DNA of 64,000 nucleotides, from the NCBI GenBank assembly GCA_018902385.1, contig JABSSW010000010.1, positions 496,001 through 560,000 on the forward strand, written 5' to 3'. Under the pieces are notes generated by a model. The model was not told where the DNA came from, did not search any database, and was given only the letters and a program-made list of their open reading frames with translations. The translations under genes were made by a program, and so were the position numbers. The DNA is from Physcia stellaris. Its lineage: Eukaryota; Ascomycota; Lecanoromycetes; Caliciales; Physciaceae. How positions within the stretch are numbered: the stretch's first letter is position 1; each line of letters opens with the position of its first letter. Positions 1-11,358 of this stretch are shown here, one piece after another.

Positions 1-3000
1 GAAAAAATCGATTCGTTGCTGCGACAACTTCTTGCTCTTGATGTCAAATATGATGTATTCGTGATGCAGTCGCAAATAAACAAAAAAATTCTTTTTCAAA
101 TTCAGTGACGTGTGACGACGATCGTAACTGAATTTGACGATCATGTTTGTTCAAACAATGATTTTTTCGACGTTTTTTCGATACTGTAAACGAAACGCGC
201 TTCAGTTTTCAGTCGACATGTCAAACAACAAATTCAAATTATTTTGTAGACGAAATTCGTAGCATAATTCGTTGAAAGTGTAATCGATTTCGGCGACGAC
301 GATATTATTGATGTCGATTTGAATGTAAAATGTGCTCTTCGTAAAATCAACGTTCGAGTTGTTGACAATTCAATAACGTAAAACAATTTCGATCGTTTGA
401 TTGATACGTTTTGATTGCTCGTCAATTTGCGAATGATAAACGATAAATATCAACAAATCGATGTCTAAACGCTTGAAAACATCAGTTCAAAATGCTGACA
501 TGAACTTTTTGTTTCTGTCTGAAATAATAGCGCGCGAAACGTCTCAATCATGACTTAATACAGCGAATAAAAAGGCGTTGATTCATTGTTTCGCAATTCA
601 AATGCTTTTGTCGAACATCAGAAATACTCGTTTGATGAATTTGCAAATGACTGTAAGCATAACGTCGTATTCGTCAACAATCGTCACGAGCAACGCTAAA
701 ATGAAATTCATTGTCATCGTGTGAAAAGATATTGAAAATGACTGAATGAGACGAAGTGAGTCGTACGAAAAATATTTGACAATTCGATGTAATTGATATT
801 GCGAACAATGTGCGACGTATGTTTGAAATTTTCGAATAAATTTTTTGATGAAAAATGAAATCACTATTCGATCATATGTTTTGTGAAAATCAGCATGTTC
901 TAATCGATCATACGCAAATGCAAAAATTTCGTCGACAAACTGCTTGAATATGCAAAGTCTTTCTCGATCGTCATCAAATTCGTCGACGTAATAGATAAGT
1001 TCGTCTCGATAACGAAAACGAAAATCTTCAAAACTGAAAAAAAATTTCTCAATCGATTTTTCAATAAACGACTTTGCGACAGCGAATGAGAGTATCGCTT
1101 TGATGTTTGAATCGATAATGTCGATTTTGACGACGACAATGTCTTTTGATTTGATAAATTTTAATATTTTGACTCAACGTTTGTTTTTTAAATATGTTTT
1201 CTTTAGTCGAATTTTGAAATCATCTGACATTTTCATCAAGATGACGTGATAAGTCATGTCGAAAATGCTTTTCGATTGATTTGAATCGAGCGCTCTTTTG
1301 ACGATGTCAACATTGAAAAACAATCTGAAAAGAACGTCAGACACGATATGTTGCTTTTCGGATTTGTGTTGAACATCTAGTCGAAATTGCGATAAATATG
1401 TCGAGACTCGCATCAAACGTAAATTCAACTTGTCGATGTTATTCGAAAATAGTTTGATTTGCTTGACAATGTTTGTGATGATCGAATGATCAATGTAAAT
1501 GATAATTTGCGAAATTGCGACGACGACTTCGATCATATGACGAGTTCGCTTGACAAATCAAATCAAATCGACTGTCTCAAACTCGATGAATCAATATCTG
1601 ATTTCAGTCGACGTCAAAATCTTACTGAGAAATGATATTGATTGTATATTTTTTTTTGTGAAAATCTTTTTATCGTTTTTGACGTGATAAACAGTTGTTT
1701 CGAAATCACGTTCGTGTGACGCGTCAACGTCGACGTAAAACTGACGCGTTTTGTCATGATGTACTAAAAATGTGAACTTGAAAAAAACTTTTTGAATGAT
1801 CTCGTAAAACTTCATTTCTGAATCGATAAATATGTTCAATCGATTGTCACTATTAAATCGCTTGCGAACGTTGTTTTTCATCGACGAGTTTTTCAACATC
1901 AAAATTTTGCGAATTTGCAACGAATTGAATAATTGAACGTAATATGACACGTAATCGCGCATTCATTCGATGAAATTCAGATACGTTTTCAATTGTTTCA
2001 ACGTGACAGAAAATCGAAACTTGAAAATGACTTTCAATTTCTTCTCGACAATGATGAGTTCAAAACTGTCAACTTTCTGATCAAGCAGAACGACGATAAA
2101 ATATTCGAGATAAATTTTGCTGAATTTCAAAACGATGTTCATTTTGCGAAATAGCTCGAAAATCTTGATTAAATGCTCGATATGTTTCTCAAATGTTTTG
2201 CTAAACATTACAATGTCATTCACGTAAACACGAGCGAAATCGCGAAAATTTCGCAATATAATGTCTATTTGTCGCTGAACATACGTCGAATTGTTTCGAA
2301 ATTTCATAATTGTCACGTTGAATTGCTCGTTGTCTTTATGTGACACGACAGTTAATTTATGCCGATTCGCTATTTTCATCAATCATTGATGAAAAAATTC
2401 GATTGCATTCATAACGCTGACATACGAACATTCGTTGACGAAACTGATAATGTCTGATTGCAACGACATGAAATAATCATTCGATTTTGACATTTTGTTG
2501 AGATCGCGAATGTCAATCACAATTCTGTTTTTCTTGATTGAATTTTTGCTTGACGCATGTACGATTTTTCAAACAACGAAAACAGAAAAATCGTATGAAA
2601 TTGTTTTCTTTGTTCAACTTATCTTCTTTTCTCGATGTAGTTTGTTGAATTCTTGATTTATGAATTCGCGATTCTGTAAATCGACGAAATAAACGCGCGA
2701 AAATTCTGATTTGACGTCAAAAATGATCTTTATCGACATTCAATTTTTTTCGAGCACGTTGATCGTGTCGCCGCTGTCTTTTCAAATGCTGAAAAAACTT
2801 TCGCAGTGCTTTGTAATCGTTGCTGTACGATCGATGACGTGTCATAAACTGTAATGTTCGATGAAATAGTGATTTCGAGCGACGACGTTGAAACGACAAC
2901 ATGAACTTGCAATACTGCGAGAATCGAAATAGAAATCGACGTCGTCGCTGAACTGATAATTAAATCGAACAACAACGACGTTGTTATCATGATTAAATCG

Positions 3001-6000
3001 ACTACTGTCGTCAGAACGCGACGTTTTCAATTGACGTCGACGATCAAATGAACATCAGCGACGTCGACATGATAACAGTCTTTCTCATCGAAATCAAATA
3101 TTTTGTCGAGCTTTGTATGCTTTGACACAATGATTGTTTTGTCGATGACGTTTCTGACGTGAATCATTGATGTTTTGAAATCAACGATATGTGTCATGAT
3201 GTCATTTTTCGCTCCAAAATTGATCGAAGTGACGTGTGACTGAAACGAGTAATTTCGTTCGATTGACAAATTGACGCTCTGCTTAAACGACACTGTCATG
3301 ACGATATGAACTGAAATCGTGACGACATGATGAGATTTGACGACGCGATTGATTCTGAAATTCGTAAATGTACAGATGATCGATGTCGTCATATTGCAAT
3401 TGTCGATGATAAGTTTTCGAATCTGCAAATTGACGATCATCTTTTCTGAACACATAATGTTCGTGTCAATCAGCATTTTGACTCGCAGATTGTCGACGAC
3501 GTGTACGTCTCGCTTGATATGAACAATGAACGTTTTTCTTTTGAGTTTGTCTTCAAAATACAAATTTACGTTGACGTAATCAAAATTGAAATGTTCGCGA
3601 TTTTCAATTTCTCGTACTGTTATCGAATCAGCGATTTGCTTAATGACAATGTCGAATATTAAAACGTGTAATCACTGTTTATCAATCAATGACATGATAC
3701 ATTCGATGTTCAAACATAAATTTTTCATGACTTTCTGATAGACAATCGTAATTTTGACAATAGCGTATTTTCAATTTCTGAATTCGTATTCGTCATTCTT
3801 ATTCGACGTGACAGTGAATATTATGACAAATTGTTTTCACAGCGATAGCTGTGCATTTTTGTCGATGACAGTAATATCGTGAATTTGCTTGTTTGTGTTA
3901 ACGTGTTTGACAACAAACTTGTTGTTTGAAAATGTCTTTCGACAGTTTCGTACATGTTTATGAAGTTTGTTATTCGAATAAAAAATTTGTTGACATAATC
4001 GACACGTATATTCTAGTTGACGAAAAATGTCAACGAAATCGACGTCTACGTAGTCGTGATTGTCTTTCGTGTGATTTGTTGTCGAAAAACTATTTTAAAC
4101 AGATTTCGTAAATTGCTTCTCATGTTCATGATATTCGGAAAAAAAATCTTTCGATACGTTTTTTCAAACGACGTTTTCGTCATTGTCAAATGAATCGACG
4201 ACGTAAACATTTTTTTGATACGCTTTCGCTGATTCATTGCTTTGTCAATTATTTCGTGACTGAAAAAAATAGCGATCGTCAGACTGATTTAATGATCGAT
4301 TGTCAATTGTCGATTTCGAATCGTATTCGTCTTGTTGATAATTTTGTTGATTGTTTGATTGATTGTTTTGCTGTTTTGAGATCGACTGAATTGATTCGTC
4401 AAAAAAACGTTGTGATGTTGATTTCGTAAATCTTTGCGTGTTTGAGAACGAATTTTCTGATTGTGAATATTGATTTCGATACGTCTGCTGACTGTATGAC
4501 GAATAATACTGATATGAATTAGCATAATTCGAATTGTAATTATTTTGTTTTTGAAATTGTCGATTGAGAAACTTTTTGACGAAACGATTTTCGACGTTCT
4601 GATTGACGAGAAGATTGTTACTGTATTGATCAATTTTATCGTCGACACGATCACGATTGTCACGATCTCGTTGATTGAACTGACTGTTTCGACTGCGATA
4701 CACATTCTGCCAAATCTTCTTTTTGACTTTTATTTTCTCGAAAAACTGTGTCAGCGTTGTTGTTTCAGTAAGTGCGTCAATGTCTCGTTTGAATTTCGAA
4801 TCGAAATTTCGTCATGTTCAGATTAGCTGATGATAAATGAAGTCAAAACTGACGTTTTTGACGTAACTGACGATTTGTTGTACGTAGCTGAATGACTCAC
4901 GATCGTTACGAACGTCAACAATAAAAAATCTCTTTGTTATCAACGAATTGATGACGACGAATTGATTGAACTTGAATCGCTTCTTAAATGAGTTGATTCA
5001 TTCTTTTGTCAAATCGATTTGTCGTAATCCGAAACGCTTCAAAGCTGTCAATTCATCGATGTATCAAATGAAAACGATGTTTTGTAAACACGTGTTCAAA
5101 TTGATCTTAACAACGTCGTGATCTTTCGTGACAGCTAAATTCAAAATACGCTCAATGAAAAAATGAACGTTTCGATAATAGACGTTCTTGTCGTTTCTAA
5201 TCATCGATTTCGATTCGTATTTTGCTGACAAATGTGAATCAAAAAAGTCAAGATTTTCGAGTCGTCACGTTGACGTGTCGTGATCATTGTCGACGCCGAA
5301 TACACTCTGTGATTCTGATGATTCTTGAAAGTCTGATGAATTCTGAGATGACGAATGTCTCGTCACGTAACTGTCGAAAATTGCATCGATTATACGTTGA
5401 ATATGTGCATCGATTTGTTTCGACATGTTTGATGTTGACGTGATAAAACGCGAATCTGAATCAAATGAACGATGATAAATATTTTTTTCAGTTGACGTGT
5501 CGAAAATACTGTTCGGTCGTCGATTTGATGTCTCGATTTTCGTTGACGAACGAAACGAATTATTGAGAAATTCGAATAAATTGCGATTTACGTTTTTTTT
5601 TCTGACGTCAGACGATGCTGACGTCGTGTACGAAATGCTTTTAAACTATCATCGATTGATGATGAATGTTTGACAGAATTATGAATCGAGCTGACGTCGA
5701 TCGATTCAGAAAATGATTTCTCGAATAATGTTTTGATGATTGACTGAAAAATGCGTACGTTCTTTCGTAATTGCGAATGATTGATCATTCAACGAGAAAT
5801 GTGTTTCGATTCGAGATTGTCTGTAATTCTGATGTGATCGATAAAAATGTTGACGATTTGAAATTTGCTGATTTCTGACGAGCGTAGTTTTTTCGAGATA
5901 ATCGCTCGAATTGCACGCCGAACGCTGAAAAATACTAAATCGAGATTGATGTCTATCGTATCAATGAAATCTTGCAATTGAAAAACAAAAATGACAATGT

Positions 6001-6600
6001 TTCGACTGAGAAATGTAATCAATTTGCTGAAATTGTCTTTCAAATAGTGAAAGACTTTCACAGTTCGACAAACAAAGCAAAAATGTTTATCTGACAAAAT
6101 TTCGACAAACGAGAAATGAAATTATGACTGTCTGAATGATGACGTGATTTCGTTGAATTTGTTTGATAAACTTGATCGACGAGACAGATGCGTATTCGAA
6201 AAAAATACGTCACATCGACTCGTCACGACTTGATGATCAAAATCGACAACGTCGATTTTGATGAAACTGACAGCTGATTAAGTCGTCAAATCGATTGATA
6301 TGTCAGACAAATAAACGTAAACAAATAGATGACGAAATGTAACTGTCAAAACAGATTTTCTTAGCGAAATTCGACTGATGAATTTGACAGCTGACGATGA
6401 TCTGTCAAGTTGATGAAGCTGCTGAAACAGTGCGTTTGACTGCTGACAAACTGAATCTGATGTAGAACGACGTATTCGATCGACAATCAATGATGTCAAG
6501 TACGCAATACAAATCGAATCTGGATGATGCTATCAATTGATACGATTTGAAGTGTGATAAAGTCTTGCATTGAAAGCATGTAAGATGCGCACACTAAATA
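1..6600 (-). mobile_element. Fossil Ty3/Gypsy LTR retrotransposon, hypermutated, left end outside window
   Basis: Broken remnant of a Ty3/Gypsy-type LTR retrotransposon on the minus strand. Recognisable parts in element order, right to left: a Gln/Asn/Ser-rich gag-like stretch (about 3,950-5,600), a protease-like stretch (about 3,030-3,560), reverse transcriptase (about 2,000-2,700), RNase H (about 1,590-1,960) and connection/integrase-like remnants (about 600-1,540). The stretch from 5,800 to 6,600 has the same base bias but no recognised domain and may contain the 5' terminal region; no LTR pair could be delimited. Interruptions are many, well over ten. Base composition is extreme: GG and CC are nearly absent while CG, GA and TC abound, and this ends abruptly near 6,540-6,605. 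The saturated mutation suggests an old or intensely mutated copy. It looks wholly inactive. Confidence 0.85.
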
Positions 6601-6604
6601 CTAA

Positions 6605-7185
6605 ATGCCAAAAATCTACCGGCGCTAGCCGCTAGTCGGTCTGGTCTCCCAACATCATGCATCCATAACAGAAATGACACGAATTCGAGATCAAAAATCT
6701 CACATACAAATGAAAACTCAACATCATGACGTCACACGATATAAAAAACGAATAGATAGAATCAGGCTTCAAGACCTCAAATGCAAAAGGGAGTGTTAAA
6801 ATTTGTATGTCTCAGGGTCTTGGCAACACGTGATTAGGACAATAGGCCAAATAAGCCACGGTCGCATGTAACTAGAACCTACACACCTACATCAATGAAA
6901 TAATACGATTCAGACTCCAACACAATCCATGTACGGAGAGCACCACAAAGTAAGTTGCATGTCGGTAATCGATTTGTGTTTCTTTCCATATTTCGAATGC
7001 CCAAGATCCGCGACCACCAAACCCCTCAACCTCATCGCCCGCCCGCCTCGATTCCCATCGCGAGACTGACATCCGTGCTCGGAGATTTTCCGCATCAAAC
7101 ATCCATCCACCATAAAAACAGCCCTAGATCAATCTGTACTTCTTGCTCAGCAGTACCACTAACCTCCCAAAAACAGTCAACCCTA
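6605..7185. other. Intergenic transition next to the retroelement fossil
   Basis: Normal GG/CC content returns here, starting with a short GC-rich palindromic-looking stretch near 6,618-6,640. I see no gene. Part of the open frame that continues into the TPR fragment downstream lies here, but its translation is not protein-like. Confidence 0.5.
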
Positions 7186-7518
7186 ACCACCCACTTCTAC
7201 CTCGCAAACGTCTACTCCCGCCAATCCCGCCTGCCTGAAGCCGAAGCCCACCAACTGGCCGCGCTGGAACCGCTCGCGAAACAGCTGCCCCCGCTCAGCA
7301 GCGAGGTGCTCGACGCGCGCTGGGACCCGGCCCTCATCTGGCTGCAGCAGGGGAAGAGGGAAGCGTCCAGAGCGCTGGCGATGGAAATCGTGGCCGCGGC
7401 CGAGGAGGCGAGGGGGATGTCGAGGTATCTGCAGTCGAGCGACTTCGCGGCGCAGTTGAGGGAGCGGTGGGAAGGGTGGGAGGATGGGAGGAGTGTTGGT
7501 GAGGGAGGGGGGTTGTGA
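7186..7518 (+). pseudogene. Orphan C-terminal fragment of a TPR-repeat protein
   Basis: From about 7,186 to the TGA at 7,516-7,518 the plus strand reads as about 110 codons of Ala/Leu/Glu-rich helical protein with a tetratricopeptide-like pattern, including the pieces YLANVYSRQSRLPEAEA and WDPALIWLQQGKREASRALA. This resembles the C-terminal repeats of fungal TPR proteins. The frame upstream is open but not protein-like and no matching N-terminal exon is visible. The local GC content is much higher than in the neighbouring fossil, typical of a former coding exon. I read it as the 3' remainder of a gene whose front part was lost near the retroelement. An exon of a gene with an unrecognised upstream intron is the alternative. 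Confidence 0.45.
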
Positions 7519-7654
7519 GGAATGTAGGTTTTTGAGCCTGTCCTTCCTTCAGAATCTCATTCCGGAACGACGGGTTAATCGTAGTGCATTGATTCGCAGG
7601 TTCTTTCAGCCCTTCCATCGGTGGGTAGTGCGGATACCCTTCTTGGTTCATTCC

Positions 7655-7727
7655 CTTCTTCTTCTTCTTCTTCTTCTTCTTCTTCTTCTTCTTCTTCTTC
7701 TTCTTCTTCTTCTTTTTCTTCTTCTTC
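7655..7727 (+). repeat. (CTT)n microsatellite
   Basis: About 24 tandem CTT units with one interruption near 7,713. It lies 140 bp downstream of the TPR fragment and has no associated gene. Confidence 0.95.
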
Positions 7728-7734
7728 GTTGAAC

Positions 7735-9074
7735 CTCATAACCGTTGAAATCCGTTAAAATCCATAACAAACAACCCTATCCACAAAACACAAAAACCCA
7801 GCACAAAAATATTCCTCCCTCCATACAATCCCATCGATATCCCCGTCTCTCACCAGCATTAGATATGGCAAAAACCATATTAATCTGCACCAAAAAAATC
7901 CACTCGCTTAATCAATTATGGTTTTTTTGGGGGGTGATTTCAAGCAGCGCTATTGATACAGAAGAAAAGGAAGATGCGGGAAGAGGAAAAAGAGCGAGCA
8001 ATTCCATCCCTCCTTCTCCACCATCTCTATACACCAGAACCAACAAATACAATCTATCAGAACAATCTACCAATAACCCCCGCCCTATTAACCACCAAAA
8101 CACCATGAAAAAACAAAGGCCCCCAAGAAGACGCAAAAAGAAAGGCAGTGGGGATTACGATCACTCGTGTCTACCTCCCAAGACTCAAATCACCTTATTC
8201 CATCCCTCCGGCGAGATCCAAAAGGTGTCCGGTCCTTAACACACGACAAAGCATTTCGCACATCTACACCTACACAGTACCGCAGCGATTAACTGATGGA
8301 GGAAAGAGGGAGAATTGGACACTTTTTGCCTCTCGGGTTGTTCGTGATGATAGGATGGGAGGCGGTTCGACGTTCCATACCTCCACAACTCTCAAAAGAA
8401 ACAAAGGAAGATTAAGTAGCCATAGGCTAGTCTGATGCGAAATTGTCTTGGTTTGTCATATTCTCTTTCTTTTCTTACGCTATCTGCTATGATACTCAGC
8501 CATCTCCAGGAAGATAGATAGAGCGCAACTCAACCATATCTCGTTCTCAGGCCCACTTTTCTGTTTCCCGCCGCTGTCCATGCATGTTATCACTTAAGAT
8601 ATCCCGGGAATACTTCCATCGATCTGTTTCTATATTCGACGACTGCGATAATCGCACAAAAGACACGATCGCTCGCTCGCTCGAAACGCGAAGTCTGCAG
8701 TTCCCTTTTCTGGCGAGGCATGCGTGCTGAGCAATTAGTATAGCAAGGTCTTCAATCTTTCCCTGACCGGCCGAGGGGGAATACGTGCATTCAATGTTCA
8801 CACTGTCAACACCAACACCGCAACTGGAAATATCAATACAACAGCGGGCTGAATGGGCGTTGTTTGAACTTTTGCGCTGTGGATCGGATGAATCGATTCA
8901 CCAAGTACATTCTGCGCGACTGTATGCTTACTGGGAGAGGTTTTCCGTGTGCACCACATTCTTGCGGTACTGACGTGGGTTCAGGACCGGGGTTGGTCGG
9001 AATTTGAGGCCACGAATGCGGCACTTGCTCTTTGAGAGATTCGCTGAGGGTTTCCAAGTTCAGACTCTACTGAT
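7735..9074. other. Gene-free stretch
   Basis: Open frames here, including those at 7,745-8,239 and 8,148-8,435, are low-complexity and lack domain resemblance or convincing splice structure. I see no gene, RNA or transposon. Confidence 0.4.
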
Positions 9075-9943
9075 CTAGACACTCGATGCTTCAGACAAAG
9101 TCAAAGTTGGTAAGCATGACCATGCTGTGGAATGATGACCCGACGAAAATGAGGATAAGCGAGAGGCGGCCTTCCTCTTATATACCCAGGATCGCTTTAG
9201 CTCGTTGAAGAACTTAACTTTGATCCAGAAACAGTGTCTCGAAGAGATGGCATCGAGCCTGAATGGGTGTCCGCCAATGGGCTATCTCTACGAAGACCTG
9301 TAGGTTCGAGCACCTTATCTCCCGCAACTGGATCTGCGCACTTCATTTCCTACAGTTCCTTAAGCTCAAGATCTAGAGGTCTTATTGAGATGGCTTGATA
9401 ATGCCCATTCAGAATATCTTGATGGCGATCGGCCGAGCGTTGAGCCTCTACAAGCGTGTAGCTGCGAGACGTGGGTATTATCTATACGAGAGAGAGTTCG
9501 GATCTAGTACGCACCCATGAAGGATACTTAACATCAAGGACAGGAAAGCCTTGTGATTCTGCATCCTTTGGATGATTGGTATGATCTCTCCCTCTTTTCG
9601 GGCCCATTGCATGGAATCGATGACACTCATATCGCCAGTCTTCAATCCATCTAGAAGTTGTTCTAATTCAGAAAATGTTAACACGCAGCTGCTGATAATC
9701 GTCTGTACGTAATGAACACTGAGCAACGACGTGCTTGATGTGTTCATTATGCTCGCTTTCTAGAAGCAGGAACTGCAATTGTGACAGTATACCACTTATC
9801 GCACTGACTTCGGACACAACATATCGAGCCTGACTCGGTGCGCTCCTACCTGCCTTGGTGAATTGATTGAGAAGTCTAGTGATTCGTGCAGCTGCGGTCA
9901 AGATTACCAACACGCCAGCAGCGATGCTCAAAGGCTCTGACAT
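9075..9943 (-). pseudogene. Decayed STAND/NLR-type gene, HeLo-like N-terminal domain only
   Basis: The minus strand opens with MSEPLSIAAGVLVILTAAA and continues through stretches such as EVSAISGILSQLQ, LTFSELEQLLDGLKTGD and WARKEGEIIPIIQRMQNHKA. This is the typical start of fungal STAND proteins (HeLo-like N-terminal domain, known in NACHT or NB-ARC cell-death receptors). A possible intron follows the LSILHG block, after which TLVEAQRSADRH fits the next exon. A tail reading WVYKRKAASRLSSFSSGHHSTAW, broken here as WVYKRKAASRLS and GHHSTAW, matches the region after this domain. The reading frame is interrupted about two or three times and no NACHT, ankyrin or WD40 part follows, so it is a fossil of the N-terminal module. 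Confidence 0.7.
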
Positions 9944-11358
9944 TGTACGATAACGACTTTCGAAGGTACCCTATCAACCTAGGCCTGCCTGTCCTCGCAG
10001 AAACAAACCACAAATTCCGGGAGTCTACGACTTCGTCCTAGAAGTATTATTGCTAAAGGTAGAAAACGCAAGAGCGAGACGCAAAAGCCCCTCGAGTTGC
10101 ACGCGAGGGCTGAGCTGTGATCATAAGGCTAATGTAATGATGGGACCTCACCGGGCGTAGGGCAGGTCCATCTGATTGGACGATGCTCATAGGCTGTGCA
10201 CGAAGCCATTCCGGGGTCTTTTGCTGCCTTCTGCAATTAGCAACGATTCAGTGAATAATATGTTGATAAGATCGGATAGCTGGTCGAGGTTCTGTTTGGC
10301 ACGAGTGACAAGAGTTGAGCACAGCTTTCAGCCTAGCGAATTCTATGGGTAGTAGAACGCTTGGAACCATGGTCGGAAAGTGAAACGCCGCTCAAGCTGC
10401 ATAGTAGATTCAGGCCAGCCAAAGCCATCGAATGCTTCCATTCTCTCCATCTGTGGTATGGAGTAAACATTAGTGAGGAGTATGCTGCATCTTGGAACAC
10501 ATATCCAGTGAAGTGGACTCGGCTGGCACAGAGACGAACGGTCCCAATGTCGTTAGCTGAAGGCACAAGGGACAGAACAACGAGAAAAGTTGGGCAATGA
10601 TCTCGGAAAATGTTTGCCTCACACCAATAACGCCCCCGCCGCCGCTTTGCGTGACGTTCGAAGTATTACCACACGATTGCCGTCGATTCCTAGTTTTCGT
10701 TACCTTGATGAGCGGAAGAATATGATCATGTGATGAATATCCTGCTCAAGGACAGTGAATCAAAAGGGGACTCGGCCAATGATGACTGTTGAGTACCTTA
10801 GGACTCGCTTCGAGGGTTCCTGCGCTGCTGCGGGGTTCGTGGCACCAGTACATGGTACATATGCAGCTGAGCGCATTGCATCGGACAATGCATCCAGTCA
10901 TGGCAGCTCCTCAGTCACCTTCTCTCCTGCTGCATGGCTGGCTTGCTGTAGATGCGGACATTTCAGAGTACCTCTTGAACCAATCACATGCAGCGGCCAG
11001 ATAATGTTGGCTGCTTGAAGGAAAATAACAACAGTTACAGCGATCATGCAAGCTGTTTTTGTCAGGCCAGAGTTAGCTTAAGGCGGAGCTTTTCGGATAG
11101 GTAAAGGCAGCAAAGCATCTGGCGGTTCGACGGTGGCCACCGGTTTGCCATGCCTAGATGGGTTAAGCGGTCGAGTCGGGGCGTTTGTGAATGCATCTTG
11201 TGATGGGCTGCCCCAACCCCACTCTCCCGAGTCTCCCCCACCATCAGCAGATCAATCGCCTTCATCGAGTTAAGCGGTCGATCACCGCCCAGACTTGCAG
11301 CCCGAATGGCGGGACATTCTAGCACGTGATTCTTAGCACATTCACAGTCCGAGCAACT
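9944..11358. other. Gene-free stretch upstream of the metallothionein pair
   Basis: No recognised gene. Several short open frames, the longest about 90 codons, look like chance. A 13-bp direct repeat (GTTAAGCGGTCGA) occurs at 11,162-11,174 and 11,269-11,281, upstream of the first metallothionein promoter. Confidence 0.4.
11162..11281 (+). repeat. 13-bp direct repeat pair upstream of metallothionein 1
   Basis: GTTAAGCGGTCGA is present at 11,162-11,174 and again at 11,269-11,281, 80-200 bp before the TATA box. It could be a repeated transcription-factor site or chance; the sequence alone does not decide. Confidence 0.4.

Follow-up and report, generated by a model that had tools for sequence, protein, structure and literature searches.

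Loss of cytosines before pyrimidines in transposon relics of Physcia stellaris points to a probable RIP-like mutator that prefers CpC

In transposon relics of the ascomycete Physcia stellaris, the cytosines that have turned into thymines are nearly always those followed by a pyrimidine (CpY), CpC being hit before CpT, and C followed by a purine is mostly spared. We consider it likely that the transposons here were killed by a RIP-type cytosine mutator that is directed at repeats and specific for CpY, with CpC ahead of CpT. The analysis started from a 64,000-nucleotide stretch (contig JABSSW010000010.1, here C10, positions 496,001 to 560,000), referred to as the window, for which an earlier note based on the letters alone had proposed RIP-like hypermutation of C followed by C.

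The loss of CC and GG at the window locus is real and larger than this note gave. Bases 1-1,980 contain three GG (292, 574 and 1360) and no CC, exactly as had been counted; in 1,000 shuffles of the same composition the two dinucleotides together averaged 112.7 and never fell below 86, in line with the more than 100 that had been expected. Over bases 1-6,590, we found 13 CC and GG against a shuffle mean of 396.8 and a minimum of 350. The observed-to-expected ratios (o/e) in 1-6,600 were 0.04 for CC and 0.03 for GG, compared to normal values of 0.93 and 0.96 in 13,000-56,000, so the flank does not share the depletion. CpG, CpA and TpG, described as plentiful, had o/e values of 2.40, 0.98 and 1.45, and GA and TC, described as very common, reached 1.67 and 1.43. 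TpA had been called not raised, which is correct as far as it goes; it is actually low (o/e 0.39). AG (0.37) and CT (0.71) were depleted too, indicating that CpT is a second target. A 100-bp profile across the edges placed the end of the tract near 6,600, as proposed, and its start at about C10:493,900, roughly 2.1 kb upstream of the window and hence not at position 1. The features of this locus are the following.

1 to 6600, no strand: hypermutated tract, right-hand 6.6 kb of about 8.7 kb (CC and GG 13 against 397 expected in 1-6,590)
787 to 942, minus strand: match to a broken Integrase_H2C2 (integrase zinc-binding) domain of a Ty3/gypsy-type pol (PF17921, 25.7 bits, cut-off 25.5)
1384 to 1755, minus strand: match to a broken RT_RNaseH domain of the same pol, in the same frame as Integrase_H2C2 (PF17917, 32.3 bits, cut-off 24.8)
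6535 to 6670, no strand: right terminal direct repeat, 136 bp, 90% identical to its mate at C10:495,153-495,288
6794 to 6922, no strand: outer direct repeat of about 128 bp framing the tract, right-hand copy (mate at C10:493,772-493,899)
7001 to 64000, no strand: flank of normal composition containing open reading frames (o/e of CC and of GG per kb, 0.62-1.34)

The Pfam domains in the tract were found with stops translated as X, and we read them, in order and type, as a putative broken Ty3/gypsy-type retrotransposon, of which the 136-bp terminal direct repeats are presumably the LTRs. Because the depleted tract stops within the right terminal repeat, the terminal pair provides an internal control. 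Taking the right repeat as reference, the left one carried C>T at 8/9 CpC and 5/14 CpT and at 0/22 CpA and 0/12 CpG. Thus, 13/13 right-to-left C>T changes fell at CpY, small numbers that come from the window locus itself; one further difference, at CpT, went in the reverse direction. Similarly, the outer repeat pair showed eight C/T differences, five at CpC and three at CpT, again a small number.

The mutation spectrum was then derived from copies of a retroelement of normal composition (L046, C12:58,801-62,800). Of its 41 matching rows (40 scored of 227 candidates), one was the element itself, one a 95% identical copy on C5, and the other 39, mostly full-length, had 68-80% identity. Segments of four copies from the latter group (on C95, C51, C2 and C35) were pooled, with L020 and C120 kept outside the pool. 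Relative to L046, the pooled copies showed C>T at 1031/1205 CpC (86%), 693/1185 CpT (58%), 48/1123 CpA (4%) and 32/1163 CpG (3%). Compared to the 95% identical copy on C5, taken as background (CpC 17/266, CpT 12/272, CpA 7/251, CpG 11/258), the CpA and CpG rates of the four decayed copies were near background. C>T and G>A accounted for 1806 (806 and 1000) of the 1924 substitutions, the other types for 118, and 1724/1806 lay at CpY. Transitions from C:G to T:A are therefore almost exclusive and occur on both strands, as in RIP and as the earlier note had argued.

The near-complete CpC preference claimed at first stands in so far as CpC is the preferred context, and falls short in that CpT is also a target. 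The first 2 kb of three copies form a graded series, with CpC/CpT fractions of.75/.44 in C95,.86/.53 in C51 and.93/.75 in C2, and all four pooled copies had a lower fraction for CpT than for CpC; since CpT follows CpC along this series, CpC as the sole target was ruled out. The copy on C120 (951 columns, 4 transversions) had lost nearly all of both, with C>T at 145/149 CC (.97), 93/104 CT (.89), 16/126 CA (.13) and 3/144 CG (.02). With only 4 transversions in this copy, its CpA changes probably mark a weak target that is reached late. L020 (on C86), the most diverged copy, showed CpC.88, CpT.87, CpA.20 and CpG.14 along with 158 transversions, ordinary divergence being superimposed on it. An unrelated element carrying a DDE_1 transposase gave the same order when L035 was compared to L041, namely CC 222/278 (.80), CT 185/304 (.61), CA 20/295 (.07) and CG 18/310 (.06). 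Repeats are hit, as the earlier note had supposed, here the Ty3/gypsy-type relic, the decayed retroelement copies and the DDE_1 element.

These comparisons bear on two explanations of another kind. DNA that is foreign or unusual in composition, or an error of assembly, would fit blocks that are AT-rich, odd in their dinucleotides and in many cases located on small contigs. This reading hardly deserves credence, since both element families compared include normally composed copies within this genome, and it was ruled out by the copy differences, which run one way, C>T at CpY, and by the terminal repeats of one element, which differ likewise. Ultraviolet or another dipyrimidine-lesion signature would account for CpC and CpT both being affected, as both are dipyrimidines. 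We dismiss it almost entirely: TpC before a purine, a dipyrimidine as well, is spared in the pooled copies (C>T at TCA 11/361, TCG 15/418), which rules out such damage, and lesions would not stay within sharp-edged transposon relics.

The same pattern was found at many other sampled loci. The genome comprises 43.97 Mb in 147 contigs, from which 20 stretches of 10 kb were chosen, non-randomly, at matches and where small contigs begin; together with the 64-kb window they make 264 1-kb windows, a biased sample that gives no genome fraction. CC+GG o/e was below 0.1 in 143 of these, at least 0.6 in 113 and between in 8, and the mean GC content was 27.9% in the depleted windows compared to 49.3% in the normal ones. 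AT-rich blocks with odd dinucleotides often lay on small contigs. In the sampled loci, the depletion was confined to repeats, in that transposon relics were mutated, the flank was normal, the edges were sharp and the windows were bimodal; this was judged on non-random loci, with copy number known for part of the depleted windows. We also compared loci pairwise, dropping alignments of <400 columns or <80% identity, within-locus pairs, pairs with unmutated copies and the overlapping pair L040/L044, each of which was retained against third loci. Across the 40 pairs kept, which are non-independent, the differences numbered 3901 at CpT, 1073 at CpA, 839 at CpG and 259 at CpC, those at CpA and CpG being commonest where transversions were many.

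By the indices in use for RIP, these loci would go unnoticed. With thresholds taken from the available text of two published sources (PMC7882544, PMC6714961), the composite index was positive in 0/143 depleted windows, the product index TpA/ApT reached at least 0.89 in 0/143, and the lowest substrate index among the 143 was 0.92; the sole RIP limit within reach of some depleted windows would be the former, lax one of 1.03 for the substrate index. TpA/ApT ranged from 0.33 to 0.48 across the window tract together with eight depleted loci. Among the normal windows, 2/113 were composite-positive. A CpA target, raised TpA/ApT and lowered (CpA+TpG)/(ApC+GpT), as RIP requires, were thus not found here; loss of CpA with an excess of TpA was absent from the other copies and windows examined, and the absence of the classical CpA-to-TpA signature stated in the earlier note is borne out. 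On the composite index of the 143 depleted windows, classical CpA RIP hidden elsewhere was rejected. In contrast, (CC+GG)/(TC+GA) was 0.000-0.017 in the eight depleted loci and the window tract versus 0.74-0.98 in four normal stretches, and this simple index could reveal further cases.

We then looked at the distribution of the changes between the strands. In the copy on C95, three 200-bp bins were changed on nearly one strand only (1/20 vs 23/28, 3/24 vs 19/25 and 4/28 vs 20/26; Fisher p 1e-7, 1e-5 and 6e-6, with no correction for the 46 bins tested across four copies), and its first 2 kb contained 116 same-strand runs compared to an expected 140.5 +- 6.9. The runs test was weak in C51 (156 vs 167 +- 7) and empty in C2 (193 vs 195 +- 6), and C35 was examined by 200-bp bins only. 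Overlapping episodes would wash out the signal in the advanced copies C51 and C2. The pattern, with strong strand tracts in C95 alone, suggests discrete enzymatic episodes along one strand.

Such tracts would also be produced by a different cytosine deaminase, of the AID/APOBEC type, working on single-stranded repeat DNA, and this would give C>T without any need of 5mC. AID/APOBEC enzymes are known to read the base 5' of the C they edit. Here, the 5' base had little effect on CpC (ACC.89, CCC.87, GCC.82, TCC.86) and the 3' base decides, so that editing of this type failed on its own dependence; APOBEC_N, the one deaminase family searched for, had no match in the genome at E<=1, and we regard this explanation as very improbable.

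The main rival, in particular for old copies, is slow decay, in which DIM-2-type methylation of heterochromatin, mainly at CpC and CpT, would be followed by spontaneous deamination of 5mC over many vegetative generations. It would draw on the DIM-2 orthologue that the genome appears to encode, and decay would be limited to the methylated contexts; in the available text of PMC8016269 and PMC13297926, the DIM-2 context varies by species, being CpT in Neurospora and CpA, with raised mitotic C>T, in Zymoseptoria. However, C>T at CpY stood at 1724 to 200 for all other changes, so decay far above background would be needed, strand-coordinated tracts as in C95 are unexpected if each site deaminates independently, and two 95% identical copies are clean. 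We therefore rate slow decay as rather unlikely.

The stop codons in the relics offered a further prediction. Mutation at CpY can create a stop only by turning TGG into TGA, whereas mutation at CpA yields TAA and TAG from CAA and CAG. Of 527 RVT_1 candidates, 150 were scored; these matches, 10 of them without any stop, contained 250 TGA, 33 TAA and 3 TAG, and 11 DDE_1 matches (2 of them neighbouring and overlapping) contained 48 TGA and 3 TAA. The stops are thus mostly TGA, as predicted for CpY.

Compared to RID-dependent RIP of Neurospora crassa, the process described here shares transitions from C:G to T:A on either strand, the targeting of repeats, AT-rich relics and a RID-like gene. It differs in that CpC exceeds CpT and CpA and CpG are low, whereas the available text of PMC5496416 gives the order CpA>CpT>CpG>CpC for N. 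crassa and CpA~CpG, CpT>CpC for Trichoderma reesei; it also differs in that TpA is low instead of raised and stops are mostly TGA. CpC, the least favoured context of RIP in that source, is here the most favoured and nearly exhausted, and CpA is hardly touched. Signatures at CpA, CpT and CpG were described in a study of 10 genomes (available text of PMC4352252). CpT-type RIP in Magnaporthe, Botrytis and Sclerotinia resembles our case in having CpT as a real target and a RID-class gene, but its signatures in the same text are CpA and CpT, with CpC not among them. DIM-2-linked methylation and mutation in Neurospora and Zymoseptoria is alike in the presence of a DIM-2 orthologue and in a context that depends on the species (CpT, CpA), and unlike in that the available parts of PMC8016269, PMC13297926 and PMC11315935 give no CpC preference. 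CpG/TpCpG hypermutation in Microbotryum is likewise repeat-linked C>T in a non-CpA context (PMC4352252, available text), yet CpG is the best preserved context here, with 32/1163 changed. Ascobolus MIP (Masc1) has enzymes of the RID/Masc1 kind in common with our genome and, as far as the text of PMC4352252 goes, methylates only, whereas the changes here are mutations. A k-mer survey of 1,239 genomes concluded that RIP-like defences have a CpA preference in common (PMC12543289, available text). No CpC-dominant mutator was found in our searches, which covered the listings and part of the text of an open-access collection free of preprints.

To the earlier suggestion that cytosine methyltransferase genes be sought, the genome offers three candidates of the Dnmt1 family, two RID-like and one DIM-2. 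The search used the PF00145 profile alone, which a divergent enzyme might escape, and returned four matches in three genes, on C3, C6 and C5, each with its catalytic motifs. The C3 gene aligns to PDB 9bap_A (1456 residues) over residues 220-905 (E 2e-181), a chain that we infer from its length and the available text of PMC11315935 to be Neurospora DIM-2; judged by this alignment, the C3 gene is a DIM-2 orthologue, with a Pfam BAH match below the cut-off (19 of 30.8 bits). The C6 and C5 genes keep the catalytic motif IV PPCQ and carry EET (C6) and EQT (C5) as motif VI, both of which we take to be marks of the RID/Masc1 class. No BAH domain was present in the exons scanned of either gene. By length and motifs, both predicted proteins resemble RID/Masc1, so that a RID-class methyltransferase, which RIP requires, appears to be encoded on C6 and on C5; the C6 gene contains in-frame stops, probably within short introns.

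The C6 and C5 products are 40% identical in the catalytic region. This divergence, with EET versus EQT in motif VI, would accommodate two separate processes, one for CpC and one for CpT, carried out for instance by two RID-like enzymes, and the lag of CpT behind CpC in all four pooled copies points the same way. This is a version of, and overlaps with, the explanation that we prefer, and we think it improbable as a distinct one: CpC and CpT climb together along the series, as with one enzyme and two grades of target, and in Anisogramma a pair of rid genes goes along with different contexts. Anisogramma has the same set, two rid genes and DIM-2, and yet shows CpA and CpT signatures (PMC10998396, available text), so that this set is not diagnostic.

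For the CpY-specific repeat-directed mutator that we favour, the enzyme would be of the Dnmt1 family, either a RID/Masc1-like protein or the DIM-2 orthologue. It would read the 3' pyrimidine and bring about C>T in repeats, on one strand each time, probably around mating and in rare episodes rather than continuously. The presence of a MAT alpha gene is a hint of a sexual cycle. As the two 95% identical copies on C12 and C5 are unmutated, a state in which a system at work all the time would not have left them, not all repeats are currently being targeted; these may be recent copies, or sex may be rare. We read the process as functionally RIP-like and, by the criterion of CpA preference, as non-canonical RIP. 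More tentatively, this lineage may possess a repeat-directed mutator with a specificity almost opposite to that of RIP, CpY in place of CpR, owing either to a RID or DIM-2 that has acquired a new specialisation or to an enzyme that does not belong to the RID pathway.

RIP is recognized chiefly by its target dinucleotide, and DNA saturated with C>T is missed here by the usual RIP index. If our reading is true, such fungi would be scored as RIP-free by surveys based on CpA and TpA, and a class of genome defence may be unrecorded. If it is confirmed, comparing the RID or DIM-2 of this species with relatives of the CpA type would make it directly testable what determines the sequence preference of RIP and which enzyme carries out the chemistry.

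A second pair of direct repeats, the outer one, with members about 128 bp long, flanks the hypermutated tract at these positions:

C10 (the contig holding the window) 493,772-493,899, first copy
window 6,794-6,922, second copy

This pair possibly marks both termini of a short non-autonomous element in which the gypsy-type element is nested. Just beyond the mutated tract, a (CTT)24 microsatellite (window 7,655-7,727) has retained its CpT sites. On two small contigs, C120 and C130 (positions 1-10000 of each), composition shifts from normal to CC/GG-free inside about 1 kb, indicating that mutated DNA is sharply bounded there as well. C10 has another island without CC/GG, 4-5 kb long, at 467,001-471,000 (positions ~1,001-5,000 of the fetched stretch L017), only about 22 kb from the island of the window.

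Within the window, the tract has kept the following sites:

window 292, 574, 1360, 2362, 2771, 3214, 4137, 4710, 5029, 5296, 5515, 5918 and 6522, 13 surviving CC/GG

Eleven of these 13 lie in a GCC/GGC or CCG/CGG context. In the partly mutated copies of a retroelement, by contrast, CCG had no protection, with 158 of 177 sites changed. The copy on contig C95 (L048) harbors, at alignment positions 1-200 and 1,600-2,000, stretches of 200-400 bp with mutations nearly all on one strand, which may be the preserved footprint of single mutation episodes.

The genome assembly contains one DIM-2 gene alongside two RID/Masc1-like methyltransferase genes, whose catalytic regions are 40% identical:

C6:791,557, RID/Masc1-like gene, motif VI EET
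C5:499,307, RID/Masc1-like gene, motif VI EQT

It also carries two unmutated copies of the same retroelement, 95% identical to each other:

C12:59,140-62,189, unmutated copy
C5:1,165,350-1,168,398, unmutated copy

Beside this pair, at least 39 further match rows were found at 68-80% identity (40 scored of 227 candidates), and all four copies fetched from the 39 rows (C95, C51, C2 and C35) were strongly mutated. Since the C12 and C5 copies are clean among these relatives, the defence is at present sparing these two.
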